Origin: Klebsiella sp. RIT-PI-d
GTDB taxonomy: Bacteria > Pseudomonadota > Gammaproteobacteria > Enterobacterales > Enterobacteriaceae
Assembly (NCBI RefSeq): GCF_001187865.1
Contig: NZ_LGIT01000009.1
Coordinates: forward strand, 1,426,001-1,490,000
Length of the DNA: 64,000 bases
Reading direction: 5' to 3'
Position 1 is the stretch's first letter. The number at the start of each line of letters is the position of its first letter. The notes under the pieces are model-generated. The model was not told the origin of the DNA and made no database searches. It worked only from the letters and a program-made list of their open reading frames with translations. This document shows positions 1 to 19,278 of this stretch, piece after piece. The position numbers were made by a program, and so were the translations under genes.

Positions 1-365
1 GTTGTGCTGCGCCCGATACCCTCGTCATCAACAACAAGTTGCCGGTAAGCGGGAACCGCAGCCAGCCAGGCGTTAAGCGCCTGTGGCTCCAGCGTATTTG
101 CGGATTTTTTTTGCACCACCAGCGTGCGAACGATCTCCCGCAGATGCCGGGCATCGTTCAGTAATGCTCCGGCAGGCCAGATGATTTTTTCATCCGGACT
201 GATTAGGCTCGCGTCTACCAGCCAGCGCCAGACATCTTCATCCGACTGCCAGAGATCGTGCGCCGATCCATTCACCTGCATTACCGTATTAAGAAAATCC
301 AGCGCGGCGTGATCCGCCAGAAATAACGGCTGGCGATCGGTCTGCGCCGGGGTTTCAGAAGTCAT
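1..365 (-). CDS. ABATE-domain (CGNR zinc-finger type) putative regulator, partial
   Basis: The reading frame opens at an ATG (complement of 363-365) and runs off the left edge, so only about 121 N-terminal residues are visible. The start of the protein carries the motif FLADHAALDFLNT, which resembles the N-terminal ABATE domain of putative stress-induced regulators that end in a CGNR zinc finger. That C-terminal finger would lie outside the window. The gene is divergent from the alpha/beta hydrolase at 522, and the shared spacer has repeated GTAACC/GGTTAC words, so it may control that hydrolase. The family call rests on motif memory only; ligand and function are unknown. Confidence 0.7.
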   Translation of the reverse strand, partial: MTSETPAQTDRQPLFLADHAALDFLNTVMQVNGSAHDLWQSDEDVWRWLVDASLISPDEKIIWPAGALLNDARHLREIVRTLVVQKKSANTLEPQALNAWLAAVPAYRQLVVDDEGIGRST

Positions 366-444
366 AACTCACCTCAATGCTCAATAAGCGTCAACGCATA
401 ATAGCCGATGCCGGGTCGCATGTAACCTTTAAAAATAATTTGAC

Positions 445-482
445 TGGTTACTTATTTGGCCCATACTGACATTAAGTAACCA
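445..482. promoter_or_regulatory. Inverted repeat, putative operator
   Basis: TGGTTACTTA at 445-454 is the exact reverse complement of TAAGTAACCA at 473-482, with an 18-base spacer. Further GTAACC (422-427) and GTTAC (500-504) words flank it. It lies in the divergent spacer between the ABATE-type gene and the hydrolase, so an operator is the likeliest reading; the bound protein is unknown. Confidence 0.5.
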
Positions 483-521
483 CTCAAATAGCAATTTAAC
501 AGTTACAAGAAGGAAGATCGT

Positions 522-1400
522 ATGACGATGAATATTCATTACCCCGTGCGTTACCAGTTTGTCGATGCTGATGGCGTACGCGTATTTTATCGGGAAGCCG
601 GAGAACCCACGCTGCCGACCCTGCTGCTGGTCCATGGTTTTGCCGCTTCGTCCCATCAATTTCGGCAATTAATTCCTTTGCTGGCAGATAAATTTCATCT
701 GATTGCGCCTGACTTGCCGGGATTTGGATTTACCGAAATTCCGCCAGAACGCCACTATCGTTACACGTTTGATGCCCTCGGCCAGACATTGACGGCCTTT
801 GTCGATGCCCTGGATCTGCAACGCTACGCGCTGTACATCTTCGATTATGGCGCACCTGCTGGTTTGCGACTGGCGCTGAATTATCCTGAGCGGGTAAGCG
901 GCTTGATCTCACAAAATGGCAACGCGTATCTTGAGGGTCTGGGTGAGGCCTGGGCTCCGGTCCGCGCATACTGGGCGTCACCCACGGCAGAAAACCGCCA
1001 GGTCGTCAATGATGCAGTATTGAATCTGGAAGGGATACGCTGGCAGTATCTGCACGGCGTAAAAGATCCGCAGAGCGTGGCCCCGGAAACCTGGCATCTT
1101 GATACCCTGTTAATGGAGCGGCCGGGCAACAGGGATATTCAGCTGGATCTGTTTCTCGACTATGCCAATAATCTGACCCGCTACCCGGAGTTTCAGGCTT
1201 TTTTCCGCGCCAGACAGCTTCCCACGCTGGTTATTTGGGGCCAGCACGATCCGTTCTTTATTCCACCCGGCGCCAAAGCCTGGCAGCGTGATAACCCGCG
1301 TGCGGTGGTGGAACTGCTGGACACCGGTCATTTCGCGCTGGAAACCCATGTGAATCATATCGCCACCCGCATCCGCGACGTGATTGGCGATGCGAGGTAA
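522..1400 (+). CDS. Alpha/beta hydrolase, haloalkane dehalogenase / epoxide hydrolase type
   Basis: The 292-residue protein has a classical alpha/beta hydrolase fold. The oxyanion region is LLLVHGFAASSHQF (about residues 34-47). The nucleophile elbow reads IFDYGAPAG with Asp108, where lipases and esterases have Ser. The acid is probably Asp243 (GQHDPF) and the base His270 (DTGHFALETH). An Asp nucleophile is typical of haloalkane dehalogenases and epoxide hydrolases, so the enzyme probably opens a C-halogen or epoxide bond through an ester intermediate; the substrate cannot be told. The start is preceded by an AAGGAAG ribosome binding site. No signal peptide is visible, so it should be cytoplasmic. 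Confidence 0.85.
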   Translation: MTMNIHYPVRYQFVDADGVRVFYREAGEPTLPTLLLVHGFAASSHQFRQLIPLLADKFHLIAPDLPGFGFTEIPPERHYRYTFDALGQTLTAFVDALDLQRYALYIFDYGAPAGLRLALNYPERVSGLISQNGNAYLEGLGEAWAPVRAYWASPTAENRQVVNDAVLNLEGIRWQYLHGVKDPQSVAPETWHLDTLLMERPGNRDIQLDLFLDYANNLTRYPEFQAFFRARQLPTLVIWGQHDPFFIPPGAKAWQRDNPRAVVELLDTGHFALETHVNHIATRIRDVIGDAR

Positions 1401-1443
1401 TCACGATTATTGCCGCGCAACAGAACGCTGCGCGGCGTCAACG

Positions 1444-2676
1444 CTAACGTGAGGCCCGCTCGCGGGGCTGAGAAGAGGCCGGATTACTTTGTACTTTTGT
1501 GCCAATCACTAGCGCAGCCAGCAGCATAACGCTCCCTGCCGCAATAAAGACGCCGCTAATTCCGTTGACGCTAAACATCAGCCCACCTCCGGCCGCGCCT
1601 GCAGCTATCGCCGACTGAACGGATGCCACGACCATTCCTCCAGCGCTTTCCGCCCTGTCTGGTACTGCCCGGGTCACCCAATTCGACCACGCTACCGGAA
1701 TGCCTCCAAACGCCAGCCCCCATAGCGCTATCAGCGCTGCCTGAAGCGGTAGCGTGGCGGGTAGGCATACCAGCGCCAGTGCGGTTACGCCGATCACCAT
1801 CGGCATTATGACCATTGTGGCACGAACGCTACGTGCAAGTAGCGACCCCGTCAGCAGCGTCCCGATGAAGTTGGCGACCCCAAAGCCCAACAGGATCAAC
1901 GCAATACCGTTTGTACCCGGCCCGCTGGTAGTTTCAAGAAAAGGCCGAATGTAGGTAAACAGCGCAAAATGCCCGCTGTGTACCAGTATGCAGGCCAGCA
2001 TTCCCATCGCAATGCCACGGCGGCGCAGTACTTCAATAATCGTTTTCAGCTGCGCCGGTTTACCGGGCACCAGCGAAGGAAGCGAGGACCACTGGACTAT
2101 CAGGGTTATCCCGCCCAGCGCGGCGGACGCGATAAACGCGCTGCGCCAGCCAAACAGGCCGCCCATGTAACTGCCAAGCGGCACGGCAACTACAGTGCCC
2201 ACCGCCACGCCGCTAAAAATAATCGATAACGCGCGCGGCAGCAGCGCCAGCGGCACGAGGCGCATCGCTATCGCAGCGGCCATGCTCCAGAATCCTCCCA
2301 GCGCGACGCCTAATACGATACGCATCAGCAACAAGATGCCCAGGCTGGATGACCAGGCCACCAGTAAACTGGATACAATCATTAAGGCGGTGAAAATAAG
2401 GAGCACTGTCCGACGGTCGATATTACGCGTTAGTCCAGGCACCAGCAGTCCGGCAAAGAGCGCAGCCACTGCTGTCACAGTCACGGCCTGCCCGGTTAAC
2501 GCTTCAGAAACACCCAATTCTGTTGCCATTGGAGATAATAAGCTGGCAGGCAGATATTCTGCGGTCAACAGACTAAATACGCCCATCGCCAGTGAAAATA
2601 CCGCCAGCCAGGCGGGAGTAGTGGGCGCTGAATGCTCCGTTAAGGCGCAACGGCTGTCGCACACGGTATGGCTCAT
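1444..2676 (-). CDS. MFS transporter, NepI-like (DHA1 family) efflux protein
   Basis: A 410-residue, very hydrophobic protein with about 12 predicted membrane helices. It aligns by eye along most of its length with NepI (YicM), the inner-membrane purine ribonucleoside exporter, for example VFSLAMGVFSLLTAEYLPAS, GQAVTVTAVAALFAG and ALGGFWSMAAAIAMRLVP. It is too divergent to call NepI itself, so the substrate is open: nucleosides, sugars or a drug. It is divergently transcribed from the AraC-type regulator at 2738 with only about 61 bases between the starts, so that protein is its likely regulator. Confidence 0.82.
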   Translation of the reverse strand: MSHTVCDSRCALTEHSAPTTPAWLAVFSLAMGVFSLLTAEYLPASLLSPMATELGVSEALTGQAVTVTAVAALFAGLLVPGLTRNIDRRTVLLIFTALMIVSSLLVAWSSSLGILLLMRIVLGVALGGFWSMAAAIAMRLVPLALLPRALSIIFSGVAVGTVVAVPLGSYMGGLFGWRSAFIASAALGGITLIVQWSSLPSLVPGKPAQLKTIIEVLRRRGIAMGMLACILVHSGHFALFTYIRPFLETTSGPGTNGIALILLGFGVANFIGTLLTGSLLARSVRATMVIMPMVIGVTALALVCLPATLPLQAALIALWGLAFGGIPVAWSNWVTRAVPDRAESAGGMVVASVQSAIAAGAAGGGLMFSVNGISGVFIAAGSVMLLAALVIGTKVQSNPASSQPRERASR

Positions 2677-2737
2677 TGTAATAATCCTGAAAAGAGTGAG
2701 AGAGGTAAAATTGTGGAGGCTAAAAGCAGGATGGTCT

Positions 2738-3742
2738 ATGATGCAAAACCCGCTATTTTTGACTCAAACACCTGAAATGAAGCCTCAAGCGCCCTTTGCC
2801 CTTTCTTCAGCATTAATTAGTGAATTATTAACCGGAATGCGTCTGCGTGGCGTGCAATATCGCCGGGTAGTGACCGGTAGCGAATTTGGCCTGAACTTCC
2901 CGGCCAAAGCGGGGCGTGCCTATTTCCATTTTCTGGCGTCCGGCACGGCTCTACTACGCCTGCACGATGGTCAACTGCATCGGCTTGACGCTGGAAATGC
3001 TGTGTTTATGCCGAAGGGTACGCAACATCAGCTGGTATCGCATTCTGCCGCCGCTGTGCACTGCCTGGAAAGTCTCGATGCTGCGCCAATAGGAGAAACC
3101 GTCTATGCAGTAAAAACCTGCCAGAAAGCCAGCCCGGCATCGGGGGCGGTCTTTTTCTACGGCTGTATGGAATTTAACCTGGGCGGGATGCAGGGGCTGG
3201 AGCCATTAATGCCCGATATGATGCTGGTTGATATTCACAGTGGACGCTATCCGGGGCTGGTTCCGGTACTGGGATCGATGCAGCAGGAGATGTGCTCATC
3301 ACGCGTGGGCTTCGCCGGGATACTTGCCCGGCTGGCCGATGTCGTGGCTGCGATGATTGTTCGCGGCTGGGTGGAATGCGGCTGCGATAATGAGTCCGGG
3401 CTGGTCGCCGCACTGCGCGATCCCCGACTGGCACGGGCTATCCTGGCACTGCACCGCGAGCCAGGACGTAGCTGGACGGTCAGCGAACTGGCGGCGGAAT
3501 GCCATATCTCACGCTCGGTTTTCGCCGATCGCTTCCAGGCGACTATTGGCACTTCCCCTTTACGTTATGTCACTGAATTACGTATGCACCTTGCCAGCCA
3601 GTGGTTAGCCGAGCATCGACTGCCGATCGAAACGGTTGCACAGCGGCTGGGTTATACTTCCCAGGCGGCCTTCAGCCGGGCATTCAAACGTGTCACCGGA
3701 CAGGCGCCAGGCGCCAGGCGTCTGAAACAGGCGTCGCTATGA
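2738..3742 (+). CDS. AraC-family transcriptional regulator with cupin N-terminal domain
   Basis: The 334-residue protein has an N-terminal cupin-like sensor domain (about residues 30-190, AraC-binding type) and a C-terminal double helix-turn-helix of the AraC family. The latter shows WTVSELAAECHISRSVFADRF and the second-helix signature QRLGYTSQAAFSRAFKRVTG. The frame is open far upstream over the divergent transporter. I chose the ATG pair at 2738/2741 because an AGGA element lies just upstream and the longer reading runs antisense through the neighbouring gene. It probably controls the NepI-like exporter in response to an unknown ligand. Confidence 0.85.
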   Translation: MMQNPLFLTQTPEMKPQAPFALSSALISELLTGMRLRGVQYRRVVTGSEFGLNFPAKAGRAYFHFLASGTALLRLHDGQLHRLDAGNAVFMPKGTQHQLVSHSAAAVHCLESLDAAPIGETVYAVKTCQKASPASGAVFFYGCMEFNLGGMQGLEPLMPDMMLVDIHSGRYPGLVPVLGSMQQEMCSSRVGFAGILARLADVVAAMIVRGWVECGCDNESGLVAALRDPRLARAILALHREPGRSWTVSELAAECHISRSVFADRFQATIGTSPLRYVTELRMHLASQWLAEHRLPIETVAQRLGYTSQAAFSRAFKRVTGQAPGARRLKQASL

Positions 3743-3787
3743 CCGCTATGCCGCTGGCGCAGAAAGGTTCGCGATAGCGATCAGCGA

Positions 3788-5296
3788 TTAAACAGGGTGC
3801 GGCGTCTGCCCGGCAAGCTGCTGCAGTGCCTGTCTGCGTAACGCATGGCGGTCCACTTTGTTGGTCCCCGCCAGCGGGAAAAATGCGGTCAACCAGATAT
3901 GACGAGGGTGTAAATACGCCGGGCCGTGCTGTAATGTCCAGGCTTTAATGGCCTCTGGCTGCACCGGGTAGCCCTCGCGGGGGATCACCCACGCCACCGG
4001 TTTGCTGCCTTTAATTTCATCCGGAATAGCCACCACGCACGCCTGCTGGACAGCGGGATGCTGCTCAAGCAGCCGTTCTACTTCGCCGGGATAAATATTC
4101 TCACCGCCGCAGACAAACATATCGTCCTGCCGTCCGACAAAGGTGTAAAAGCCCTGTTCATCACGGGTAAAGACATCTCCGCTGCGGTAGTAGCCATCAT
4201 CGGTAAACGGGCTGGCGATATCAGGTCGCTGATGGTAGCCCTGCATTAAGGCCGGGCTTTTTATTTCCAGCACACCGTGATGAGTCAGCGTACCGTGCTC
4301 ATCACGCAGGCGTAAAGAGACCGCCGGATGCGCATAGCCATTTGCAGATTGCGGGGCCACCAGCCCGTCAGGATGTGGACCAAACACAATTGGGCCGCCC
4401 TCGGTCGTGCCATAGGCATTAATGATCCGCGCCTGCGGCCAGATTTGCTGGATCTGCTGAAACAGGCCATCGTTAACCGGGGCCGACCCCATGCGCACCA
4501 CCCGAACGGAGGAGAGATCGCTTTGTGCCAGCAGCGTTTTCTCTTTCATCATCATTGCAATCATCGGCGGAACGGCGGTCAGCCAGCTGCAACGATAGTG
4601 GGCAATCGCCGCGATGTAATCGCGTACCTGAAACTGGGGTAGCAGAACGGTGGTCACTCCGCTTGCCAGAGTCAATAATGCCAGGGCCAGCGCATTCATA
4701 TGGTAAAACGGTGCGGCAATCAGTACTCGCTGGCCGGCCAGTTCATTCATTGCCAGCCGGGTCTCGACTACCCAGCGATGGCTGGCATGGGTCAGACGGA
4801 CGCCCTTTGGCATTCCGGTGGAGCCGGAGGTGTAGAGCAGCATTGCGAGGCTGTCGGCCTGCGGCTGAAACGGCATAAAGCCGACGGCAGCAGGAAGATC
4901 GACTAACGCGTCAAACGTCCACTGCGGACCGGCAAACGTTACGCTCTCCAGTAATTCCGGCTCACCGATAACCTGCCGGGCATCGCAATCGATGAGAATA
5001 TCGGCAAGCGTTGCCGGCGGGAATTTAATGTTGACAGGCACCGCCACCAGCCCGGCGCGCAGGATGCCGAGAAAGGCGATCATCCAGGCAACCGAATTAC
5101 GCCCCAGCAGCGCTACCCGCTCGCCGGGTTGATATCCCTGCTGATACAGCGCCGCCCCCACCGCATCCGCGCGGGCGTCGAGTTCAGCAAAGGTTATGCT
5201 GTACTCATGATTATTATCATGTGCGGGCTGAATAAATGCGGCCTGCTGCACAGCGCGAACCGTGGACGATAGCGAACCAAGATTAGTCAGGATCAT
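3788..5296 (-). CDS. AMP-forming acyl-CoA synthetase / ligase
   Basis: A 502-residue member of the ANL (AMP-binding) superfamily, which activates a carboxylic acid to an acyl-adenylate and then an acyl-CoA. The P-loop-like motif LLYTSGSTGMPKG (about residue 155) is intact, as are the A5 motif NAYGTTEGG, the hinge YRSGDVFTRDEQGFY and the C-terminal domain with GTNKVDRHALR. The Lys in that last motif (TNKVDR) is the expected catalytic lysine. It is the last gene of the leftward operon and overlaps the VOC gene by four bases. Its position suggests that it CoA-activates the compound brought in by the linked ABC importer. The acid is not identifiable. Confidence 0.88.
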   Translation of the reverse strand: MILTNLGSLSSTVRAVQQAAFIQPAHDNNHEYSITFAELDARADAVGAALYQQGYQPGERVALLGRNSVAWMIAFLGILRAGLVAVPVNIKFPPATLADILIDCDARQVIGEPELLESVTFAGPQWTFDALVDLPAAVGFMPFQPQADSLAMLLYTSGSTGMPKGVRLTHASHRWVVETRLAMNELAGQRVLIAAPFYHMNALALALLTLASGVTTVLLPQFQVRDYIAAIAHYRCSWLTAVPPMIAMMMKEKTLLAQSDLSSVRVVRMGSAPVNDGLFQQIQQIWPQARIINAYGTTEGGPIVFGPHPDGLVAPQSANGYAHPAVSLRLRDEHGTLTHHGVLEIKSPALMQGYHQRPDIASPFTDDGYYRSGDVFTRDEQGFYTFVGRQDDMFVCGGENIYPGEVERLLEQHPAVQQACVVAIPDEIKGSKPVAWVIPREGYPVQPEAIKAWTLQHGPAYLHPRHIWLTAFFPLAGTNKVDRHALRRQALQQLAGQTPHPV

Positions 5297-6081
5297 AGAC
5301 TGAACTCAAGTAAAGTGTGAATAGCCGGAATGGCAATAAGCAGCCGCTCCTCAGTCTGAATATGGGGCAGTCCAGCCTGTTGTGCCGCGCGGATAAGCCG
5401 CTGCGGATTGCCGCCGCGAAATGCGATCGCCGCAAACTGGCTCTGACGCGCCGGGTTCAGCCCCGGAAGACCTGCCGAATAGTGCGTCCACTGCTCGCCG
5501 GAAATGATGCGCAGCGTAAAACCCGGAGACAGCGTGCCAGCACGCTGCCACGCGCGCTGTTCCTGATCAGGAGAATCGGTTACCAGAATCAGGCTCTCAA
5601 TGCCTCTGACACCGTTGGCGTGCTGTAGCCACGGCTCGCGCCACAGCCACTGCGGAGTATGGTGCTGGCAAAAGTAAACCCGCCCGGCCGCAAAGCTGCC
5701 AGGCGCCAGGCGTACGGTGCTAAACCGCGCTTCACCGCGCTCGCCGTCAGCCTCAACGGTGCGGGAAAAATGCTGTACCGGCAGGACTGAAAACCCCTGC
5801 GCGGCCAGCTGCCGCGCGGTATCGAAGGCATCTGGGCTGCGAAACACCAGGCCGTCAATACCGCGTGGGCTGTCGAGCAACTCCTGACGCACCCGACTCC
5901 CGTCACCCGGGAGACCAATCAGCTCAAGATAATGATCGCTGAACATAATCAGCTGATTCAGCGAGCCCAGCGAATGATGGCTTTCCGGCGTGAGGGTAAA
6001 TCCGAGGGCGGTAAACGCCTCGCGGGCAATGGTCAGCTCAAAATGATTATTGATGACCAGATGATCGAGCGTCAGCGGCAT
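5293..6081 (-). CDS. VOC / glyoxalase-like domain protein
   Basis: A 262-residue protein that begins LTLDHLVINNHFE and continues with the beta-alpha-beta pattern of the vicinal-oxygen-chelate superfamily, most like the Glyoxalase_3 group. His7 is a plausible metal ligand. Members are metal-dependent lyases, dioxygenases, isomerases or non-catalytic binding proteins, so the reaction is not predictable. It overlaps the acyl-CoA ligase start by four bases and follows the thioesterase by nine, so the three are surely co-translated. It has no signal peptide. Confidence 0.75.
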   Translation of the reverse strand: MPLTLDHLVINNHFELTIAREAFTALGFTLTPESHHSLGSLNQLIMFSDHYLELIGLPGDGSRVRQELLDSPRGIDGLVFRSPDAFDTARQLAAQGFSVLPVQHFSRTVEADGERGEARFSTVRLAPGSFAAGRVYFCQHHTPQWLWREPWLQHANGVRGIESLILVTDSPDQEQRAWQRAGTLSPGFTLRIISGEQWTHYSAGLPGLNPARQSQFAAIAFRGGNPQRLIRAAQQAGLPHIQTEERLLIAIPAIHTLLEFSL

Positions 6082-6090
6082 AATGTCTCC

Positions 6091-6504
6091 CTATGCCGCA
6101 GGCATGGCGTACAGGCCGCGACCGCTGGCCACCAGCCGGTTTTCTGCGTCATAGACCCAGGCTTCTGCGCTGGATACCTGCTTACCCACTTTAATCACTT
6201 TGCCTGTAATGCGCAGATCGCCACGCGCGGCGCGGTGATAATCGACGCGAATATCCAGCGTCGGCACACCTTTGCCGGTCCAGGCCACCAGCGCCCAGTC
6301 GGCGGTCAGGTCGACCAGCGCCGCAAGAATGCCGCCGTGAATGTAGCCACCCGCCGGGTTAACCACCCATTCATCACGAAAACGGGCGCGCAGCGTAATT
6401 TCGCCTTCTGCCACGGCCTCGACTTCCAGCCCGAGCCACTGGTGATACGCTCCTTTCAACAATTTTTCCTGCACCTGTGCAGCGTTTAAAAGTATTTCGC
6501 TCAT
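6091..6504 (-). CDS. PaaI-family hotdog thioesterase
   Basis: A 137-residue single hotdog-fold protein. The signature GGYIHGGILAALVDLTADWA (about residues 52-71) is the HGG motif and helix of PaaI / 4-hydroxybenzoyl-CoA-type thioesterases; Asp65 in that helix is the probable catalytic acid. Such enzymes release CoA from aryl or short acyl thioesters, often as a rescue step in CoA-dependent catabolism. It sits between the reductase and VOC genes of the same operon as an acyl-CoA ligase, which fits a CoA-thioester pathway. Confidence 0.85.
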   Translation of the reverse strand: MSEILLNAAQVQEKLLKGAYHQWLGLEVEAVAEGEITLRARFRDEWVVNPAGGYIHGGILAALVDLTADWALVAWTGKGVPTLDIRVDYHRAARGDLRITGKVIKVGKQVSSAEAWVYDAENRLVASGRGLYAMPAA

Positions 6505-6516
6505 GGTGTTTTCTCC

Positions 6517-7533
6517 TTAAGGGGTGACGATGACTTTGCCGAGGACTTCCCGGTCGCGGATAAGCCGTAATCCTTCTGCCGCCTGCTCCAGCGGTACTTC
6601 CCGGTCGATTAACGGCACGATGACGCCCCGGGCAACAAGTTGCAGCAGCGCCTCTAAATCGTCCTGATAGAAACTGTTAGACCCTTTGATGGTGAGTTCA
6701 AAACTCCAGATATAGCGCAGGTCTTCCACCGGGTCATAGCCTGCGGTGGCACCACACACCAGAAGCGTACCGCCGCGTTTCAGGCATTTAAGTGACGGGC
6801 GCCAGGTATCGCCGCCGGTGAAGTTGATCACCACATCCACACCGCCTTCATAGTTGCGGCGCTGCGGTTTGCCGTAGCGATTTATCGCCCAGCGCGAGAA
6901 GTCCTCCTCCCGGTAGTTCACCACCCAGTCAGCGCCCAAATTGCGCAATGCCTCTGCTTTTTCCGCGCTGCCTGCGCAGGCAATCACTTCTGCTCCCAAT
7001 TTTTTGGCCAGCACCACGCAGGCGCTCCCGACGCCGCCGCTGGCTCCGAGGATCAGCACCCGATCGCCGGGTTTAATGGTGTTATGGGTAAACAGCATCC
7101 GGTGCGCAGTCCCGTAAGCCACGGGCAGTGCGGCAGCCTGAGCAAAACTTACGCCGTCAGGCAGGGCAATAAGCTGTGCCGCCTCAACCAGCGCATACTC
7201 GGCCATGCCGCCGTCGGTCATTTCACCCATCAGCCCGACGCCGGGTTTTAACGGATTAACTAGTACCCTGTCCCCCGGGGTCCAGCCGCTGACGTCATCG
7301 GCAACGTCATCAATAACGCCGGCCAGATCCAGGCCTGGCACCACCGGCAGCGGCACTTTAATGCCTGGCATACCGTTAACGGTAAACACATCGTGATAGT
7401 TAAATGAGGAGGCTTTAACCCGCACAATGACATGTCCGGCCTGTAGCACTGGCCGGGGCTTATCGGTTACGACCGACAGATTGTCGAGGCTGCCGTGCTG
7501 ATTGAGCTGTAATGCTTTCATGGTATGGCTCAC
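6517..7533 (-). CDS. Zinc-type alcohol dehydrogenase / quinone oxidoreductase-like (MDR) protein
   Basis: A 338-residue medium-chain dehydrogenase/reductase. The N-terminal GroES-like domain contains VVPGLDLAGVIDDVADDV. The Rossmann domain shows the nucleotide-binding motif ILGASGGVGSACVVLAKKLGA. Acidic or His zinc ligands are not obvious, so it may be a zinc-free NADPH quinone/enoyl reductase rather than a true alcohol dehydrogenase. The GTG start is supported by a GGAG element six bases upstream; an in-frame ATG lies four codons later. It is co-transcribed with the ABC importer genes upstream and the thioesterase downstream. Confidence 0.85.
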   Translation of the reverse strand: MSHTMKALQLNQHGSLDNLSVVTDKPRPVLQAGHVIVRVKASSFNYHDVFTVNGMPGIKVPLPVVPGLDLAGVIDDVADDVSGWTPGDRVLVNPLKPGVGLMGEMTDGGMAEYALVEAAQLIALPDGVSFAQAAALPVAYGTAHRMLFTHNTIKPGDRVLILGASGGVGSACVVLAKKLGAEVIACAGSAEKAEALRNLGADWVVNYREEDFSRWAINRYGKPQRRNYEGGVDVVINFTGGDTWRPSLKCLKRGGTLLVCGATAGYDPVEDLRYIWSFELTIKGSNSFYQDDLEALLQLVARGVIVPLIDREVPLEQAAEGLRLIRDREVLGKVIVTP

Positions 7534-7545
7534 GGTGATCTCCGT

Positions 7546-8526
7546 TTATTGAATGGATTTGGCCGCGCGATAGGCGGAGTCGTTATACAGGTTGTCGGGC
7601 ACGTCGCCCTTTACCGTGCCGCTGGCGACGAAGACCTGGTGCTGGCGCTTGAGGGTGTCGATATCCTCAGGCTCAAACGTAAGGCGGTTCATACTGTCCC
7701 AGCGGCTGAAATAGACTTCGGCATCATGCTTTGGCAGATTGGCATTTTTTTGCAGCAGCTCAACCACCTCCTGCGGGTGAGTTTTGCCCCATGCCAGGGT
7801 GTCACGCAGCGCGGCGATGACGCGGGCGACGGTCTGCGGGTGCTTTTCAATCAGCTCGCTGCGCACCGCCCCGACGCCGATGTACGGCACCGCTTCGCTA
7901 TGCGTTAATTTTTTCCACTCGTCGGCAAAGCTGCCGAGCGACGTCACGTTTAGCTCGTTGAGCTGGGCGATGGTTAGCGAGCGCAATGCTGCCGCATCCA
8001 CCTGCTTTTGCACCAGGAACTGCGCCAGCCGCGACTCATTGCCGCCAATAAGCTGGAAATCGCTGGCGTCGATGTGGTTATTGTTCTGCAATAGCGTGGA
8101 GGCGATAACCGCCACCGAGGAGCCAGCGGGCGACATGCCGATCTTCTTGCCCTTAAGCTGATCGAGCGAGGTAATCGGCGATCCTTTCGGCACGACAAAT
8201 TGCACATCCGCAGGCTGCGTGGCGGCAAAAATCTGGATTGGCACCCCCTGCGCGCTACTGCTAAACACTCCCGCCAGCGGCGCACCAAAGGCCAGATCGA
8301 TAGAGCCTGACGCCAGTGCTTTGATCGGCGCATTCACATCCGGGAAATGAACAAACTCGGCGTCAATGCCGCGTTTAGCTAAAAAGTCTTTATTTTCCAG
8401 TACGGTACCGTAGCCGAGGCTGACACCACTGCTCCAGTAACCAATACGCACTTTGTCAGCGGCTGCTGTGTTCAGGGCAAAGAGCGCCCCGGCAGCCAGG
8501 ATAGCCGCCTTTAACCCGTTTTTCAT
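7546..8526 (-). CDS. ABC importer substrate-binding protein (SsuA/TauA/NMT1-like)
   Basis: A 326-residue periplasmic binding protein. It has a Sec signal peptide (MKNGLKAAILAAGALFALNT, probable cut after ...TAAA) and a mature part starting DKVRIGYWSSGVS, typical of the nitrate/sulfonate/taurine/THI5 binding family. LKGKKIGMSPAGSS is the usual mid-domain motif of these proteins. The permease gene starts four bases away and the ATPase is contiguous, so 7546-10072 is a complete importer. The bound ligand is unknown; the downstream CoA ligase suggests an organic acid rather than taurine. No monooxygenase or desulfonase gene is nearby. Confidence 0.87.
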   Translation of the reverse strand: MKNGLKAAILAAGALFALNTAAADKVRIGYWSSGVSLGYGTVLENKDFLAKRGIDAEFVHFPDVNAPIKALASGSIDLAFGAPLAGVFSSSAQGVPIQIFAATQPADVQFVVPKGSPITSLDQLKGKKIGMSPAGSSVAVIASTLLQNNNHIDASDFQLIGGNESRLAQFLVQKQVDAAALRSLTIAQLNELNVTSLGSFADEWKKLTHSEAVPYIGVGAVRSELIEKHPQTVARVIAALRDTLAWGKTHPQEVVELLQKNANLPKHDAEVYFSRWDSMNRLTFEPEDIDTLKRQHQVFVASGTVKGDVPDNLYNDSAYRAAKSIQ

Positions 8527-8530
8527 ACTG

Positions 8531-9304
8531 TTAGTCCTGTGTCGATGATTTCCAGCGAAAAAGATGACGCTCCAGCGGCTTAAGTACCCCGCCTTCCAGC
8601 AGCAGCATCAGTGAGACAAGCAATAGCGTCCAGGCGAAAACCTGATCGGTTTGCACCAGATCCCCGGCCTGACGCAGGCGATAGCCGATGCCATCCGACG
8701 CGCCAAGGGTTTCGGCCACCAGCGACACGCGCCAGCCAAAGCCGAAGGCCAGCCGCGCGCCCGAGAAGAAGTACGGCAAAATGGTCGGCAGGTAGATTTT
8801 GCCGAGCGTTTGCAGGCGGCTCATGCGAAAGCTCTGTGCCAGTTCGACATAGTGCCGCTCAACGGTTTGCGCCCCCTGCCAGACGTTGGTCAGGATCAGC
8901 GGCATGGCGGTCATGAACACCACAAAAACCGTGGTTGCATTAGAGATGCCAAACCAGATAATGGCGAAAATCGCCCAGATCGCCGAGGAGACCGTATTGA
9001 ACACCGCCAGCAGCGGCTCAAAAAATTGTGCCAGCTGACGACTGGCTCCCAGCGCCAGCCCGGCGAGAGTACCCACCAGTGTCGCCAGCAGAAAGCCGCT
9101 GAGCACTCGCGAGAACGTCACGCTTACATCCTGCAACAGAGTATCGTTTTGCCACAGTGCCAGCAGCGCCTGAAACGTTTTTTGCGGCCCCGGCAGGACA
9201 AACGCAGGCATATTGTGCGCGGCCAGCATCCAGGCCAGAAAGAAGATCCCCAGCAGCACCAGGCGTTGAACGATCAACGAGCGTCTTTTACGCAGCCAGT
9301 TCAT
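8531..9304 (-). CDS. ABC importer permease (SsuC/TauC-like)
   Basis: A 257-residue inner-membrane permease of the BPD_transp_1 family with about six helices. The EAA-type coupling loop is seen as QSFRMSRLQTLGKIYLPTILP (about residues 155-175), and the conserved GFGWRVSLVAETLGASDGIGY segment follows. The stop is next to the substrate-binding gene and its start touches the end of the ATPase gene (9305), so translation is coupled. It forms the channel of the importer. Confidence 0.87.
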   Translation of the reverse strand: MNWLRKRRSLIVQRLVLLGIFFLAWMLAAHNMPAFVLPGPQKTFQALLALWQNDTLLQDVSVTFSRVLSGFLLATLVGTLAGLALGASRQLAQFFEPLLAVFNTVSSAIWAIFAIIWFGISNATTVFVVFMTAMPLILTNVWQGAQTVERHYVELAQSFRMSRLQTLGKIYLPTILPYFFSGARLAFGFGWRVSLVAETLGASDGIGYRLRQAGDLVQTDQVFAWTLLLVSLMLLLEGGVLKPLERHLFRWKSSTQD

Positions 9305-10072
9305 CTATACCTCCAGGCGCAGCAGGCGCACTTTTTCCGCGACATCGCGCCCGGTGGGCAGCCGTGGACGCGGTAATGCGAGGGTGACGCTCTGTTTGAT
9401 GCGCCCCGGATTGGGCTGCAAAATCACAATCCGGTCGGCGAGGATCACCGCCTCTTCAACGTCATGCGTGACGATGACCACCGTCATATTTTTCAGCGCG
9501 CAGATGCGCAACAGTTCACTGTGCATGGTGCTACGGGTATGTGGATCGAGCCGGGAAAAGGGTTCGTCCATCAACAATATCTGCGGATCGGCCACCAGGC
9601 TGCGCGCCAGGGCAATACGGCTGCGCATCCCGCCGGAGAGCTGGTGCGGCCACTTCGCCGCGACCTTTTCCATGCCGACCAGCCGTAACGCGTCGTCAAC
9701 CCGCTGACGGCGTACCTGACGCGTAAGCCTGCTGTTTTCCAGCGCAAAGTTAACGTTCTGATGAACCGTGCGCCACGGCAAAAGGCGATCCTCCTGAAAC
9801 AAATAGGCCACCTGACGCCACTGACTAAAGCGCGTAATGTCCTCTCCCTGCAGCGTGATAGCGCCGCTGTCAGCCGGCAACAGACCTGAGATAATATTCA
9901 GTAAGGTACTTTTGCCGCCGCCGGATGCACCGAGCAGGGCGACTATTTCGCCGGGCCAGACATCAAGGGCGATATTCTCCAGCACCGTTTGTCCATCAAA
10001 TTGCTTGCTGACGCCGTCCAGATGGATCACCGGGTCAACAGGCGCGGGAAAATCGTTAAGCTGTGCGCTCAT
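9305..10072 (-). CDS. ABC importer ATPase (SsuB/TauB-like)
   Basis: A 255-residue ABC ATPase. Walker A is GASGGGKST (about residues 53-61), the signature is LSGGMRSRIALARSLV, Walker B is ILLMDEPFSRLD and the switch His is in VIVTHDVEEAV. It energises the neighbouring permease. The signature motif has RS where family members often have QR, a small difference that should not prevent activity. Its start overlaps the last four bases of the GntR-type regulator gene, which makes the regulator the first gene of the operon. Confidence 0.88.
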   Translation of the reverse strand: MSAQLNDFPAPVDPVIHLDGVSKQFDGQTVLENIALDVWPGEIVALLGASGGGKSTLLNIISGLLPADSGAITLQGEDITRFSQWRQVAYLFQEDRLLPWRTVHQNVNFALENSRLTRQVRRQRVDDALRLVGMEKVAAKWPHQLSGGMRSRIALARSLVADPQILLMDEPFSRLDPHTRSTMHSELLRICALKNMTVVIVTHDVEEAVILADRIVILQPNPGRIKQSVTLALPRPRLPTGRDVAEKVRLLRLEV

Positions 10073-10767
10073 AAGCCGGGACTCCGTTTCTGTATCGGCA
10101 GCAGCGTGCCGCCGGTGGTGAGGGTGGCGTAAATTTTTTCCAGGGTCATCGCCTGAAAGGTTTCAATGTGCCGCCGGGCGATAAACTCAACCCGTTTGCG
10201 GTCCTGCTCTTCGAAAGCCTGGATCATGGCATTATGATCGTGGCGAATTTCTGGTTTGGTTTGCTGGACATTAAATCCCAGCGCCACCAGCCGCGACATT
10301 TCATCCATCAGCGTCGAAAGCGTGCGCAGTAAATGCTGGTTTCCCGCCGCCCCGGCAATGGCCAGATGAAAACGTTTATTGGCATTCATAAAGACGTCGA
10401 TACGCGTTGGCAGCGGTGCAGCAACCTCGACCCGGCAGTCAGCTTCCAGCTGTTTAAGCAGGTCAATATCCACTTTGCCCACTGCCAGCCGGGCAGCCAA
10501 CGGCTCAAGCTGGGCGCGCAGGGTAAAAATTTCCTCCACATCCTGTAGGGTGATAGGCGCGATGCGGTAGCCTTTACGCGGCCGGGACTCAATCAAAAAC
10601 TCATGGCTAAGCCGCGCCAGCGCCAGACGACAGGTGCTTTTTCCCAGCAGATAGCGCTCCATGAGTTCAGATTCTGTCACCAGCGCGCCCGGCATCATGC
10701 GACAGGTCAGAATGTCGCGGCGGATGGCCTGATATGCCCGATCGCTTAATGATAAAGAGTGCGCCAT
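10069..10767 (-). CDS. GntR-family regulator with FCD domain
   Basis: A 232-residue regulator. The N-terminal winged helix begins SLSDRAYQAIRRDILTCRMMPG (in two parts, residues 5-26) and is followed by a C-terminal FCD ligand domain. The FCD metal-site histidines are visible in NKRFHLAI, HDHNAM and ARRHIETF. It is the first gene of the leftward catabolic operon and faces the second ABC operon across a 411-base spacer holding two TGAGCATCTCA-type sites, so it probably regulates itself and possibly both operons. FadR/FCD proteins usually bind organic acids or acyl-type metabolites, in line with the CoA ligase downstream. Confidence 0.88.
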   Translation of the reverse strand: MAHSLSLSDRAYQAIRRDILTCRMMPGALVTESELMERYLLGKSTCRLALARLSHEFLIESRPRKGYRIAPITLQDVEEIFTLRAQLEPLAARLAVGKVDIDLLKQLEADCRVEVAAPLPTRIDVFMNANKRFHLAIAGAAGNQHLLRTLSTLMDEMSRLVALGFNVQQTKPEIRHDHNAMIQAFEEQDRKRVEFIARRHIETFQAMTLEKIYATLTTGGTLLPIQKRSPGL

Positions 10768-10798
10768 GTTTTCCTCACGCTGGGTAACGCGCCGGCGG

Positions 10799-10809
10799 TG
10801 AGCATCTCA
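10799..10809. promoter_or_regulatory. Putative GntR-type operator, copy 1
   Basis: TGAGCATCTCA, extended to GTGAG-CAT-CTCAC with perfectly complementary 5-base arms. It lies about 31 bases upstream of the GntR-regulator start codon. The same word in inverse orientation recurs at 10910-10920. Binding by the regulator is inferred from position and symmetry only. Confidence 0.5.
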
Positions 10810-10909
10810 CAGCCCGGCGTTGGTCGTCTTAGTGAGGCCATTCTAGGATCGGTTTCCGGCCAAATTCTAATAACAAAACCGGCAATATAATCCCTGAATT
10901 TGTCTGAGC

Positions 10910-10920
10910 TGAGATGCTCA
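10910..10920. promoter_or_regulatory. Putative GntR-type operator, copy 2
   Basis: TGAGATGCTCA is the exact reverse complement of the 11-mer at 10799-10809, and the two are 111 bases apart. Each is itself a near-palindrome (TGAG-N3-CTCA). A pair of sites flanking a divergent promoter region would allow joint control or DNA looping. Confidence 0.5.
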
Positions 10921-11178
10921 CAGCGCCACGCTGTACTGATCACTGAATCAATACCAGAGGGTTAACATGGTGCCAGGTCAGTATCCATGCAGGCCGGCAG
11001 CGTGCCAGCCGCTGGGTTTTCACTCGCCTGATGCAGGCTTTCGATGGGTGGAAAAAGGCGCTTTGCCGATGAGCTGCTCAACAAACACATTTTGCGCATA
11101 TTGATAGCGAGAATTGTTCGTTCTGTGAAAGCCGGTCATGCTCTAACCTGGCCGTTTTCTCCCGGTCAAGGATCGTGT

Positions 11179-12243
11179 ATGCGCTTATCCTCATTATTAC
11201 TGACTGTTGGCCTCAGCGGCGTTGCCCATGCGCAGACGCCGGATGAGGTCACCGTTGCGTTAGCTATTCCTCCCGCCGTTCATGACGGTGCGCCGTACGC
11301 GGCGGCAGAAGAGCTGGGGCTGTTTAAAGAGCAAAACCTGGCGGTGAAAGTACTGGTCTTCCAGGGTGCAGGCGCGCTGTTACCGCAGGTTGCCAGTAAA
11401 CGCGTGACCTTTGGTTATCCGGTCGCGGAACCGGTTATCTCCAGCTATTTCAACGGCAAAAATCCGCTGCCGCTACGCTATTTCTATAACGGAACACCGG
11501 CGCAAACCCTGGAATATACGGTCCTGGCGGACTCCCCAATCAAAACGCTGGCCGATTTAAAAGGAAAAACCATTGGGGTCGGTGCGCTGACCTGGGGCAC
11601 CCTGCCCAATAGTCGCGCTGCGCTGCGGGTCGCCGGGCTGGAGCCGGGTAAAAACGTGCAGTTTGTGGCGGTGGGCGTCCTCGGCTCCGGTTTCCAGGCG
11701 CTGCGCAGTCATCGGGTTGATGCCCTTAACTACAACAATAGCTGGGGAGATATTTTTGAGCTGACCGGAACGAAAATCCGCCGTATTCCCTATCCGGATG
11801 TTTTCCAGCAGGCCCCCGGCAACGGCTTTATTGCCCATCAGGACACCTTCACCGAAAATCCCGATCTGATCCGTCGTTTTGGCCGGGCCTACACCGAAGC
11901 GCAGTATGTCTGCGAAATTAATCCCGGCTACTGCGTGCGGGCCTTCTGGCGACAACACCCTGAAAGTAAACCAGCCAATGCAGATGGCAAAGGATTTGAA
12001 GAGGCCAAAACGCTGCTGACCAGACGTCTTCAGCGCACGCTTTACTCTCCTGATGGCACCCGCCGTAAACCCGGTGAGTACGATCTGGCCGTCATTCGCA
12101 CGGCAATTACCGCGATGGCGAAGGCGGGAGAATTCCCCGATGCCAACGTACCGGTTGAGAAAATTTTCTCCCGTGAATTTGTTGCCGACTTTGATGATTT
12201 TGATAAAACCGCCCTGCGGGCCAGAGCGGAGGCGGCAAAATGA
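11179..12243 (+). CDS. ABC importer substrate-binding protein (NMT1/SsuA-like), second system
   Basis: A 354-residue secreted binding protein. I chose the ATG at 11179 because it follows an AAGGA element and gives a compact signal peptide, MRLSSLLLTVGLSGVAHAQ, cut after AHA. The mature protein has the family pattern of the NMT1/sulfonate group: AAEELGLFKEQNL, a LADLKGKTIGVGAL motif and FRALRSHRVDA-like ligand-site sequence (FQALRSHRVDALNY). It is only distantly similar to the binding protein at 7546, so the two importers should carry different ligands. The stop overlaps the next gene by four bases (ATGA). Confidence 0.85.
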   Translation: MRLSSLLLTVGLSGVAHAQTPDEVTVALAIPPAVHDGAPYAAAEELGLFKEQNLAVKVLVFQGAGALLPQVASKRVTFGYPVAEPVISSYFNGKNPLPLRYFYNGTPAQTLEYTVLADSPIKTLADLKGKTIGVGALTWGTLPNSRAALRVAGLEPGKNVQFVAVGVLGSGFQALRSHRVDALNYNNSWGDIFELTGTKIRRIPYPDVFQQAPGNGFIAHQDTFTENPDLIRRFGRAYTEAQYVCEINPGYCVRAFWRQHPESKPANADGKGFEEAKTLLTRRLQRTLYSPDGTRRKPGEYDLAVIRTAITAMAKAGEFPDANVPVEKIFSREFVADFDDFDKTALRARAEAAK

Positions 12244-13547
12244 GTGCCACGCTTTACGTTGATAAACCTGACGGGCTGATTGACCAGCCGCGTCGTCTGT
12301 CTGCGCAGGGACTCGCGCCCGGCATCGCCCACCTCAGTGCCTCGCTGGGGCTGGCAGATGGCAGCCGCTGGCAGAGCCATACCCGTTTTATGATTGCGGA
12401 TGACGGCACCCTCGAGGTAAATGACGCCTCGCCGCTGACGGACAATACCGTATCACATGAGCCAATGGCGGCGCTGTGGTCACTGCGCCAGGTGACACCG
12501 CCGGTTGACGCTGCGCTGAGCGATTCTCTGCAACCGCGTCGGACAGAGCTTGAAATCGTTGACGCGGCGGGTCAGACGGCCCGGGCCCACATCACGCAGC
12601 GGTTTCTCGCTGACGGCGTAACCTGCCGTGAGGTACGGGAGCACGGCCTGTCCGGCACGCTGTTTATTCCTGCCGGGGAAGGCCCGCATCCGGCCGTTAT
12701 TGTATTGAATGGCTCCGGTGGCGGTACGCCCGGGCAGCGTGCGGCGCTGCTGGCCGCGCATGGTTATCTGGCGTTCGCGCTGGCTTACTTTAAGGCCCCG
12801 GGACGTCCTGAGACTATTTCCGCTACGCCGCTGGAATATTTTTCAACCGCCCTCGACTGGGTTCATCAGACGCTGCACCCGCGCCACGGGTTTGTGGCGG
12901 TGGCCGGTCATTCACGCGGCGGCGAGCTGGCCCTGCTGCTGGGCGCCACCTTTCCGGAGCGCGTCTCTGCGGTGATTGGCTACGTCCCCAGCGCCGTGAT
13001 CCACGGCACGCTGCGGGCCGGACGCCCTGACGAACCCCGCGATGCCCCGGCCTGGACCTGGCGTGGACAGCCGCTGCGTAATATCTGGCAGGATAATCCC
13101 TGCGCCGACTGGCATGCCTTTGACCATCCGGCGCGTGCGGGCGTACCTATTCGCCAGGCCCCGGCGTTCGTTAATGTCGAACGCGATGCAGACAGCCTGG
13201 CGGCGGCGCGTATTCCGGTAGAGCGCATTGCCGGGCCGGTGCTGTTAATTTCAGCAACCGACGACGGATTCTGGCCCTCCACCGATTACTGCTCGCGGAT
13301 CGCGGCCGACCTGAGCGATCGCCAGCACCGCTGGCCGGTCGTGCATCAGCGCAATGAAGGGAGCGGCCACGCTATCGGCTTTCCATTCGTTCCCACCACG
13401 GATATTGCCAAAGTACACCCGGTTGCCGGGGTGATCATCGACGGCGGCGGTACGCCTGTAGCCAATGCCCGCGCCAATCGGCTGAGCTGGCAACAGGTGC
13501 TGACATTCCTTACGGCAGCGGTTGGCGCACATCAGGAGCAAACATGA
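12240..13547 (+). CDS. BAAT-type acyl-CoA thioester hydrolase / acyltransferase-like protein
   Basis: A 435-residue protein with the two-domain layout of the acyl-CoA thioester hydrolase / bile-acid-CoA:amino-acid N-acyltransferase family. An N-terminal beta-sandwich (about 1-130) is followed by an alpha/beta hydrolase domain. The nucleophile elbow is GHSRGGELALLLG with Ser225; the likely acid is Asp341 or Asp342 (ISATDDGFWPS) and the base His377 (GSGHAIGFP). Eukaryotic BAAT uses Cys and bacterial members mostly Ser or Cys. There is no signal peptide. The gene overlaps both the binding-protein and ATPase genes by four bases, so a hydrolase built into the importer operon probably processes the imported ester, amide or thioester. 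Confidence 0.83.
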   Translation: MSATLYVDKPDGLIDQPRRLSAQGLAPGIAHLSASLGLADGSRWQSHTRFMIADDGTLEVNDASPLTDNTVSHEPMAALWSLRQVTPPVDAALSDSLQPRRTELEIVDAAGQTARAHITQRFLADGVTCREVREHGLSGTLFIPAGEGPHPAVIVLNGSGGGTPGQRAALLAAHGYLAFALAYFKAPGRPETISATPLEYFSTALDWVHQTLHPRHGFVAVAGHSRGGELALLLGATFPERVSAVIGYVPSAVIHGTLRAGRPDEPRDAPAWTWRGQPLRNIWQDNPCADWHAFDHPARAGVPIRQAPAFVNVERDADSLAAARIPVERIAGPVLLISATDDGFWPSTDYCSRIAADLSDRQHRWPVVHQRNEGSGHAIGFPFVPTTDIAKVHPVAGVIIDGGGTPVANARANRLSWQQVLTFLTAAVGAHQEQT

Positions 13548-14302
13548 GTATAGCGCTGGAACTGCGTGGCGTCGGGCTAACCTATGCGACCCGCCGGGGC
13601 GAAATTGACGCCCTCGACGGTGTCGATTTACAGGTTGGCGCAGGTGAATTTGTCGCACTACTGGGGCCTTCCGGCTGCGGAAAATCCACCGTATTAAAGC
13701 TGGCAGCGGGCCTGATGCACGCCACTCGCGGGGAGGTTCTGCTGGCCGCCCAGCCGGTTAACGGTCCGGGTCGTGACGCGGGGGTGGTGTTTCAAAAGCC
13801 GAATCTGCTGCCGTGGAAGAGCGTTCTCGAAAATGTTCTGCTGCCGGCCCGTACGCTGGGAATGCCGCGTGCCGCAGCCAGCGTCCGCGCCCGGCAAATG
13901 CTGGAGCTGGTAGGGTTGGCTGATTTTGCCACCGATTATCCTTTTGAGCTGTCGGGCGGGATGCAGCAGCGCGTTGGCATTGCCCGCATGCTGCTCCACG
14001 ATCCGCAGTTGTTATTGATGGACGAACCGTTTGCCGCACTGGATGCGCTGTCGCGGGAAGCGCTGACGCTTGAGCTTCAGCGCATCTGGGGGCAGCAGCG
14101 TAAGTCGGTACTGTTTATTACTCATAGTATCCAGGAAGCAGTGTTTCTGGCCGACCGGGTGCTGGTGATGTCACCGCGCCCGGGCCGCATCATTGAGGAG
14201 CTGCCTGTCCCTCTGGCGCGCCCCCGCACGTCACAGACCCTCGGCGATCCGCAGTTTATGGCCCTGTGCCAGCATTTACGGAGGTACTTTACCCATGCGT
14301 AG
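13544..14302 (+). CDS. ABC importer ATPase (SsuB/TauB-like), second system
   Basis: A 252-residue ABC ATPase. Walker A is GPSGCGKST (about residues 42-50), the signature is LSGGMQQRVGIARMLL, Walker B is LLLMDEPFAALD and the switch His is in LFITHSIQEAVFLADR. The C-terminal MSPRPGRIIEELPVPL is typical of nitrate/sulfonate/taurine ATPases. It overlaps the hydrolase gene by four bases and the permease gene by eight. Confidence 0.88.
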   Translation: MSIALELRGVGLTYATRRGEIDALDGVDLQVGAGEFVALLGPSGCGKSTVLKLAAGLMHATRGEVLLAAQPVNGPGRDAGVVFQKPNLLPWKSVLENVLLPARTLGMPRAAASVRARQMLELVGLADFATDYPFELSGGMQQRVGIARMLLHDPQLLLMDEPFAALDALSREALTLELQRIWGQQRKSVLFITHSIQEAVFLADRVLVMSPRPGRIIEELPVPLARPRTSQTLGDPQFMALCQHLRRYFTHA

Positions 14303-15092: not shown

Positions 15093-15238
15093 GTTGCGGT
15101 GGCATCTGGTGAAGCGAAAATGTCTGTTGTACCGCAAAATGCCACATTCATCACTCGCAGGGGCCGATATTCGTCTAAGGTTTTCAGAAGGTTGATGCAG
15201 CGGTTGCGCTGATATACCTGTCTTAAGGAGAATAATCG

Positions 15239-16918: not shown

Positions 16919-16926
16919 CCTGTGTA

Positions 16927-16952
16927 CCCCACTACCCATTCTGGTAGTGGGG
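16927..16952 (+). terminator. Hairpin downstream of treA
   Basis: CCCCACTACC (16927-16936) pairs perfectly with GGTAGTGGGG (16943-16952) around a six-base loop, nine bases after the treA stop. The U-tract is poor, so termination may be partial or the hairpin may protect the 3' end. Confidence 0.6.
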
Positions 16953-17054
16953 TAGCGCTTGTGTCGTAAATATTCCTTTCCTGATGCGTACTTAACCGCT
17001 GAGTCCTTTGATTTGGCAGGGATTTATCCGCGCAAATCGCTTGAATATAAAAAC

Positions 17055-17073
17055 GATAACAATAATAATTCGC
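17055..17073 (+). promoter_or_regulatory. Putative Fur box upstream of siderophore receptor
   Basis: GATAACAATAATAATTCGC matches the Fur consensus GATAATGATAATCATTATC at about 14 of 19 positions by eye. It lies 40 bases before the receptor start codon, which suggests iron-repressed expression. Confidence 0.6.
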
Positions 17074-17112
17074 ATTTCCTGCTTACACTTTTACATAACT
17101 CCGGAATTTGCG

Positions 17113-19230: not shown

Positions 19231-19237
19231 TAATCGT

Positions 19238-19261
19238 GCCGGGCAGCATCTGCTGCCCGGC
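19238..19261. terminator. Hairpin between receptor and ymgE (convergent)
   Basis: GCCGGGCAGC (19238-19247) and GCTGCCCGGC (19252-19261) form a perfect 10-base-pair stem with a four-base loop between two convergent genes. There is no strong U-tract on either side. It may act as a bidirectional terminator. Confidence 0.5.
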
Positions 19262-19278
19262 AAAAACATGACTACGGG

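Follow-up and report, generated by a model that had tools for sequence, protein, structure and literature searches.

We analysed a stretch of 64,000 nt from Klebsiella sp. RIT-PI-d (NZ_LGIT01000009.1, 1,426,001–1,490,000; hereafter the window, within which all positions are given) and found two divergent operons, at 3788–10767 on the minus strand and at ~11179–15092 on the plus strand. At a probability of roughly one half, they constitute a self-regulated accessory island, mobile and found in many bacteria, for the uptake and coenzyme A (CoA)-dependent catabolism of an organic acid, which may in part be delivered as an amide. This reading builds on the observed gene content, order and spread of the system, a conserved palindrome in the shared promoter region, the presence or absence of the block between genomes, and protein folds.

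The minus-strand operon comprises eight open reading frames (ORFs) at the coordinates predicted in the ORF list. Its first gene (10069–10767; PF00392 + PF07729) encodes an FCD-type GntR regulator, carrying both the GntR helix-turn-helix and the FCD domain that define this type. It is followed by an importer consisting of an ATPase (ATP, 9305–10072; ABC_tran, PF00005), a permease (PERM, 8531–9304; BPD_transp_1, PF00528) and an SsuA/NMT1-type periplasmic binding protein with an SsuA-like fold (SBP, 7546–8526; NMT1). Four enzyme genes complete the operon: a GTG-initiated medium-chain dehydrogenase/reductase resembling enoyl and quinone reductases (MDR, 6517–7533; ADH_N + ADH_zinc_N); a PaaI-type hotdog thioesterase of 137 amino acids (TE, 6091–6504; 4HBT, PF03061, 5e-11; TIGR00369; PDB 3e29, 2e-27); a Glyoxalase_3 (PF13468) protein of 262 amino acids modelled with an HPPD-like double-barrel fold (VOC, 5293–6081); and, last in the conserved order, an AMP-forming acyl-CoA ligase of 502 amino acids (LIG, 3788–5296; AMP-binding, PF00501, 2.7e-72, plus AMP-binding_C, PF13193). 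From LIG through GntR, the intergenic distances are –4, 9, 12, 12, 4, 0 and –4 bases. The original prediction, made from the sequence alone, had described eight same-strand genes separated by at most 13 bases, and the measured range of –4 to +12 agrees with it, as do the Pfam assignments with the roles it gave to the eight genes. It had also remarked on the lack of a monooxygenase or desulfonase, and Pfam indeed detects no such domain in the eight proteins. The operon-like packing and the proposed logic of CoA ligation, reduction and thioester release are supported as well. The eight genes thus stood as described, but the unit is larger than proposed, comprising two operons and no fewer than 12 genes; the divergent second operon had been overlooked, as had a GGT-family gene that is missing here but comes after LIG in the two named Superficieibacter relatives. 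A scan for promoters and terminators returned 7 promoter-like matches vs. 6.2 expected and 19 terminator-like matches vs. 15.0 expected, counts too near expectation to be informative; one promoter-like match from the same scan (10 of 12 positions; minus strand, 5321–5292) overlaps the LIG start.

Directly upstream of GntR, the plus-strand operon encodes a second NMT1-type binding protein (SBP2, 11179–12243), an ACOT/BAAT-type alpha/beta-hydrolase (12240–13547; PF04775 + PF08840), a second importer ATPase (ATP2, 13544–14302; PF00005) and a second permease (PERM2, 14286–15092; PF00528). The SBP2 start listed with the ORF, 11044, is probably too early, as the ATG at 11179 opens a signal-peptide-like stretch; the PERM2 start was likewise placed inside an ORF listed from 14193. 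Scores for the hydrolase exceed both Pfam cut-offs (PF04775, 40 vs. 27 bits; PF08840, 85.1 vs. 20.9 bits), and it matches ACOT2 (1e-40) and ACOT4 (3.8e-40). It shares its domains with these type I acyl-CoA thioesterases and with BAAT, and its Ser, Asp and His align with ACOT2 residues that we take to be the catalytic ones, the serine lying in GHSRGGEL vs. GISKGGEL. The nucleophile of BAAT, in contrast, is a cysteine. An amino-acid N-acyltransferase of the BAAT type was therefore rejected for this product, and acyl-CoA thioesterase activity appears likelier than amino-acid conjugation.

From the 342 relatives that a scan of genome contigs with a VOC alignment recovered, the best 80 named loci were retained with ~10 kb on either side; gene context was scored with our own thresholds (33–60% identity depending on the gene, ≥35% of the query covered). 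A gene-neighbourhood search with the ligase and VOC pair had been suggested as a check on the original prediction; the present scan, made with VOC, revealed LIG, VOC, TE and MDR together in 52 of the 80 loci, in the order MDR-TE-VOC-LIG on one strand in all but two of these complete cores (50/52). The two exceptions are Bradyrhizobium metagenome-assembled genomes (MAGs) with an inverted VOC gene. The cores span 3346–4281 bases, occur in alpha-, beta- and gammaproteobacteria and, in 48 of 52 cases, are accompanied by SBP, PERM and ATP. Methylobacterium plasmids carry the identical eight genes in identical order, where the annotated orthologues bear generic names only. The 48/80 and 50/52 counts exclude a chance grouping of these genes. 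Among the remaining 28 loci, 26 had VOC alone, one had three of the four enzymes at a contig end (L049, incomplete for this reason) and one fell below every threshold; L113 was counted as VOC alone, though the four enzyme families are present there at lower identity. As all 80 loci were located via VOC, the frequency of the other genes without VOC lies outside this sample. All four genes of the second operon accompany 18 of the 52 complete cores; their orientation is divergent in the enterics that possess them, and they lie on the same strand after LIG in Pseudomonas, Duganella and two Paraburkholderia. Looser relatives combine the same four enzyme families with another ABC importer (Sodalis praecaptivus and the Firmicute Paenibacillus) or a TRAP importer (Tistrella). 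Their identities amount to 49–56% for MDR, 34–38% for TE and 26–42% for LIG, and the VOC proteins either share ≤33% identity over part of their length or were not aligned by BLAST. Common descent of the whole module including these relatives is likely yet unproved, given the low TE, LIG and VOC identities.

An importer coupled to a CoA-dependent catabolic operon is familiar as a kind; as far as could be tested, the present combination, its regulon and its spread have no prior assignment. Among the matches listed (up to 25 per protein), none of the eight proteins reached an NCBIfam equivalog cut-off, TIGR00369 being the sole NCBIfam cut-off reached at all. Searches of the open-licence literature, judged by titles and the starts of abstracts, brought up nothing devoted to these genes. 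The remark that no described enterobacterial pathway has this set was thus supported, with no assignment to a known pathway found in the listed models or by those searches; the set itself is not peculiar to enterobacteria, as three proteobacterial classes carry it. Conservation in distant bacteria, together with enzymes that score below named-function models among those matches, marks a compound that is widely handled and has been missed by annotation.

A shared promoter region of 411 bases separates GntR from the likely SBP2 start and carries the palindrome TGAGNNNCTCA three times, at 10799, 10910 and 11070. Two predicted operator copies match it (TGAGCATCTCA, 10799–10809; TGAGATGCTCA, 10910–10920), and a possible third (TGAGCTGCTCA, 11070–11080) lies upstream of the likely SBP2 start. 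The motif was first noticed in the window and then tested in other loci, namely the 50 with a GntR hit of >45% identity among the 80 named loci plus L008, L027 and L029. At least one palindrome was present within 300 bases upstream of the GntR orthologue in 38 of the 50, and at least two in 14, counts to which promoters of close kin do not contribute independently. Site density was 3.47 per kb upstream of GntR (52 sites) vs. 0.013 per kb in the remainder of the same loci (13 sites), and the consensus across loci reads GTGAGC(A/T)GCTCAC. Paired palindromes at a spacing of 88–116 occur at a single place in the strain's own genome, which is this promoter region; the reversed control yielded none. 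In 19 genomes or records picked as system carriers or members of the genus, the strict 13-mer GTGAGCNGCTCAC was found at 24 sites, vs. 5 for its reversed control. With 18 of these 24 sites placed in fetched loci and 6 elsewhere (contigs being identified by position), the excess sits at the operon. The palindrome is thus predicted to be the GntR operator, which would act as one switch for both operons. A search of the open-licence literature for the operator strings gave, among the matches listed, no title dealing with a bacterial regulator. The window contains TGAGNNNCTCA once more, at 31561; this match is single and unpaired and probably due to chance.

The sister genome G002 lacks the system at the corresponding place. 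Window positions 73–1401 and 15117–19996 match C1:2593616–2594926 and C1:2595239–2600117 there, 312 bases apart, with no match to 1402–15116 between the two flanks; other G002 matches to this segment are short (≤204 bases) and lie at different places. As the flanks adjoin in the sister genome, the ~13.7 kb represent one accessory block. Its GC content is 58.6%, vs. 52.6% for the remainder of the window, and on the simplest reading the block would have been gained or lost as a unit after acquisition from a higher-GC source. The closest named relatives belong to Superficieibacter, to which genus we accordingly assign the genome (4.25 Mb). VOC was detected in three of four genomes of the genus and in 16 of 149 genomes of a family draw (E ≤1e-10), the own genome included in both counts; of the five other family-draw genomes with ≥47% VOC identity, four have all eight genes and one (G385) has VOC alone. 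In a class draw, the own genome was the only one matched (1/369, E ≤1e-20). Distribution of the system is thus patchy. A near-match search retrieved no match in E. coli genomes and, among plasmids, four Methylobacterium records matching in the permease stretch only; viral contigs gave 18 pattern matches, with no relative among these.

A GGT-family Ntn hydrolase (PF01019; TIGR00066, 347.7 bits vs. a cut-off of 357.85) is encoded in 20 of the 80 loci, after LIG in enterics and after the second operon in Pseudomonas. The sister locus L038 has the order LIG, GGT, AraC, MFS, hydrolase. Its last three genes are colinear with the window at 78–89% identity, whereas GGT is absent from the window: the gap between LIG and AraC measures ~45 bases (3742–3788) here, and a complete GGT-family gene occupies that place in L038. 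The gene seems, then, to have been cleanly lost from this strain or never to have been present. Elsewhere in the genome, the closest paralogue shares ~54% identity with the L038 gene; as the latter shares 73–90% with other operon copies (L110 apart, with two pieces at 65 and 54%), we regard this paralogue as a different gene.

How far do the enzymes themselves constrain the chemistry? LIG, with its AMP-binding plus C-terminal domain, belongs to the ANL superfamily, and none of the best 25 of its 107 NCBIfam matches reached the cut-off of a substrate-specific equivalog. TE scores well above the hotdog thioesterase cut-off (TIGR00369, 83.4 vs. 36.6 bits) and below that of the PaaI hydroxyphenylacetyl-CoA thioesterase equivalog (TIGR02286, 19.6 vs. 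118.9 bits). MDR is similar to acrylyl-CoA and crotonyl-CoA reductase-like enzymes but far below the cut-offs of the AcuI/YhdH acrylyl-CoA and crotonyl-CoA reductase models (122 vs. 440, 134 vs. 297 and 161 vs. 379 bits). Inspection of its sequence by eye revealed no Cys/His/Glu zinc pattern of alcohol dehydrogenases, which, together with the likeness to enoyl and quinone reductases, argues for NADPH-linked reduction of a C=C bond.

VOC, in turn, exceeds the PF13468 gathering score (100.2 vs. 25.1 bits), and no sequence homologue was found for it in the PDB at E ≤0.1 (protein) or E ≤1 (profile). Its AlphaFold2 model (predicted local distance difference test score, pLDDT, 95.8) is nearest in fold to 3p8a (Z 20.6, root-mean-square deviation 2.8, 217 aligned residues). 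It shares the double-barrel VOC fold of HPPD and hydroxymandelate synthase (HMS; Z ~17–19), from which it differs in sequence (10–14% identity in the listed rows). No substitution of H7, E53, R107 or H140 occurs in 45 sequences, and the first, second and last of these residues lie on the modelled strands 5–11, 51–56 and 134–140, which suggests H7/E53/H140 as a candidate metal site in the N-terminal barrel. The metal site of HPPD, by contrast, is C-terminal. After addition of eight looser rows (53 in total), H7, E53 and R107 were still invariant and H140 was replaced in two. Amm15 carries PF13468 as well, with no role assigned to it in the part of that source consulted (PMC12424672), and the VOC and PaaI entries in a table of PMC9736018 are separate, unrelated genes.

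From these data we infer each catalytic step and the order of the steps, and also that the regulator binds and with which sign; the substrate class is deduced from the ligase and the importers. Through the two SsuABC-like importers the cell would acquire an organic acid, probably along with a bound form; in loci that encode the GGT-family amidohydrolase, this enzyme would release the acid from an amide, a task perhaps performed by a nearby M20 or CN-hydrolase in the looser relatives. Once converted to its acyl-CoA by LIG, the acid would undergo NADPH-dependent reduction of a double bond adjacent to the thioester, catalysed by the zinc-less MDR. VOC would rearrange the intermediate, or oxygenate it, using a metal site with H7/E53/H140 as candidate ligands. 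Free acid would then be released to general metabolism by the PaaI-type TE and by the ACOT/BAAT-type hydrolase. The FCD/GntR protein is proposed to sit on the GTGAGC(A/T)GCTCAC palindromes until a pathway compound relieves repression. Established pathways with a CoA handle likewise activate their substrate as a CoA ester, modify it and release the product hydrolytically; 4-chlorobenzoate, and salicylate via salicylyl-CoA and gentisyl-CoA, are handled in this way by a ligase, a modifying enzyme and a hotdog thioesterase. The system described here differs in its modifying enzymes, MDR and a PF13468 VOC protein, and has no dehalogenase or hydroxylase. A bolder and doubtful version holds that the HPPD-fold PF13468 enzyme performs metal-dependent acyl-CoA chemistry between enoyl-type reduction and thioester release, in a horizontally spread pathway found across three proteobacterial classes and more loosely in Firmicutes, fed by an acid and its amide conjugates via two importers under one GTGAGC(A/T)GCTCAC regulon. 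If true, PF13468 would gain a pathway role of a kind met in none of our searches. With its fixed enzyme order, predicted operator and small single-gene proteins, the system allows a direct search for the substrate through binding and coupled assays.

Several observations weigh against the proposed uptake and catabolic island. VOC occurs without the other genes in 26 of the 80 loci and in G385 (48% identity), and thus serves elsewhere too. The second operon was not found in 34 of the 52 complete cores within ~10 kb per side (some contigs end sooner), and GGT, scored over the same span, was found neither in this strain nor in 32 of the 52, so that an amide would at most be an optional source. 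An exact palindrome is absent upstream of 12 of the 50 GntR orthologues, that of the sister locus L038 included, and the strict 13-mer is absent from all three Superficieibacter genomes, including the own genome. The Sodalis and Paenibacillus proteins have Q and D in place of H140 (the pairing of letter and organism not being fixed), meaning that the metal site may differ in these bacteria or be misread. Finally, gene order leaves the order of the enzymatic steps unfixed.

A more specific alternative, which we regard as possible though on balance unlikely, is a route for an aromatic or phenylpropanoid acid, in which CoA activation and side-chain reduction would be followed by release to ring cleavage. 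It draws on a Burkholderiales variant of seven loci (L101, L103, L104, L106, L107, L109 and L111), which add to the core a UbiD, Rieske alpha and beta subunits and a D-2-hydroxyacid dehydrogenase in every case and UbiX in six (not found in L104); in three genomes read further, the shared gene set stops at the dehydrogenase. For the Rieske alpha subunit, terephthalate and anthranilate dioxygenases are the closest matches, albeit with a score under the cut-off of the AndAc model (407 vs. 750 bits). UbiX, a distant UbiD (31%) and a molybdopterin hydroxylase subunit also lie beside the core in two Bradyrhizobium MAG loci. Feruloyl-CoA synthetase is among the best PDB matches of LIG, and VOC has the HPPD/HMS fold; yet the scores of LIG against its best structurally solved relatives amount to only ~200 bits, too low to point to a particular acid, and likeness of fold shows no function. 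Nor was a UbiD/Rieske-type or other ring-attacking enzyme seen in the gammaproteobacterial operons. The variants nevertheless favour an aromatic or conjugated acid in the UbiD-bearing branches at least. Caballeronia sordidicola LMG 22029 carries both the plain form and the UbiD/UbiX/Rieske form (L081 and L103), probably for related substrates.

Alternatively, the system may break down or disarm a toxic or signalling acid of plant or microbial origin, or its amide conjugate, rather than support growth. Its hosts include Lonsdalea, Brenneria, Erwinia, Caballeronia, Paraburkholderia and Methylobacterium, which are plant- or soil-associated, amide hydrolases are encoded near several copies, and the genes sit in an accessory block. 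Two dedicated importers would, however, be costly for such a purpose, and the habitats are general background on these genera; we consider this explanation rather improbable.

The importers resemble SsuABC/TauABC in architecture and in the NMT1/SsuA-family fold of SBP, which brings sulfonate or sulfur scavenging into play. In its AlphaFold2 model (pLDDT 95.4), SBP is nearest to SsuA (3e4r, Z 29.4), and it has an SsuA-family NCBIfam match. That match nevertheless stays below the cut-off (TIGR01728, 116 vs. 163.5 bits), as does the TauA model, and the fold is shared by pyrroloquinoline quinone (PQQ)-, pyrimidine-, thiamine- and bicarbonate-binding proteins at Z 24.9–27.8. With both SsuA and PqqT (Z 27.8) among the closest folds, SBP may bind any of several kinds of ligand. 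Unlike Ssu and Tau systems, moreover, the present one is coupled to CoA chemistry, and its twelve genes include no SsuD, TauD or other desulfonating enzyme. The original prediction had judged ordinary taurine or alkanesulfonate use a poor fit, and we rejected it as the best reading, given the missing desulfonating enzyme and the scores below cut-off; scavenging of this kind is accordingly very unlikely. Salvage of a cofactor-like or heterocyclic compound is just as hard to credit: although PqqT, a formylaminopyrimidine binder and Thi5 are fold neighbours of SBP, and molybdopterin hydroxylase and hydantoinase/oxoprolinase-type genes adjoin some copies, a CoA ligase with two thioesterases is atypical of salvage and the flanking genes vary among genera.

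Two further genes lie inside the accessory block, an MFS transporter (1444–2676, minus strand) and a cupin-type AraC regulator (~2774–3742, plus strand). The pair was seen at this place solely in Superficieibacter loci and is no conserved member outside that genus. The MFS (c41) and enolase-family (c100) genes that flank some copies of the system, classified by eye, were rejected as members, their presence being inconsistent.

Outside the core, VOC relatives were found next to a tripartite tricarboxylate transporter or to ABC importers of the peptide or branched-chain type. Those at L028 9974–10822, L127 9001–9840 and L124 7983–8846 adjoin other importers, together with genes for a luciferase-type monooxygenase, an M20 aminoacylase or a GST, a recurrence that points to a general partner role for the little-studied PF13468 family. 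A MAG contig labelled Bordetella parapertussis (L070) has a VOC relative only, and its species label is doubtful. On a Ketogulonicigenium vulgare plasmid, an ACOT/BAAT-type gene adjoins a GGT-family gene (L136 9899–12764) in a stretch without the ligase core, and a VOC relative lies ~13 kb from this pair.

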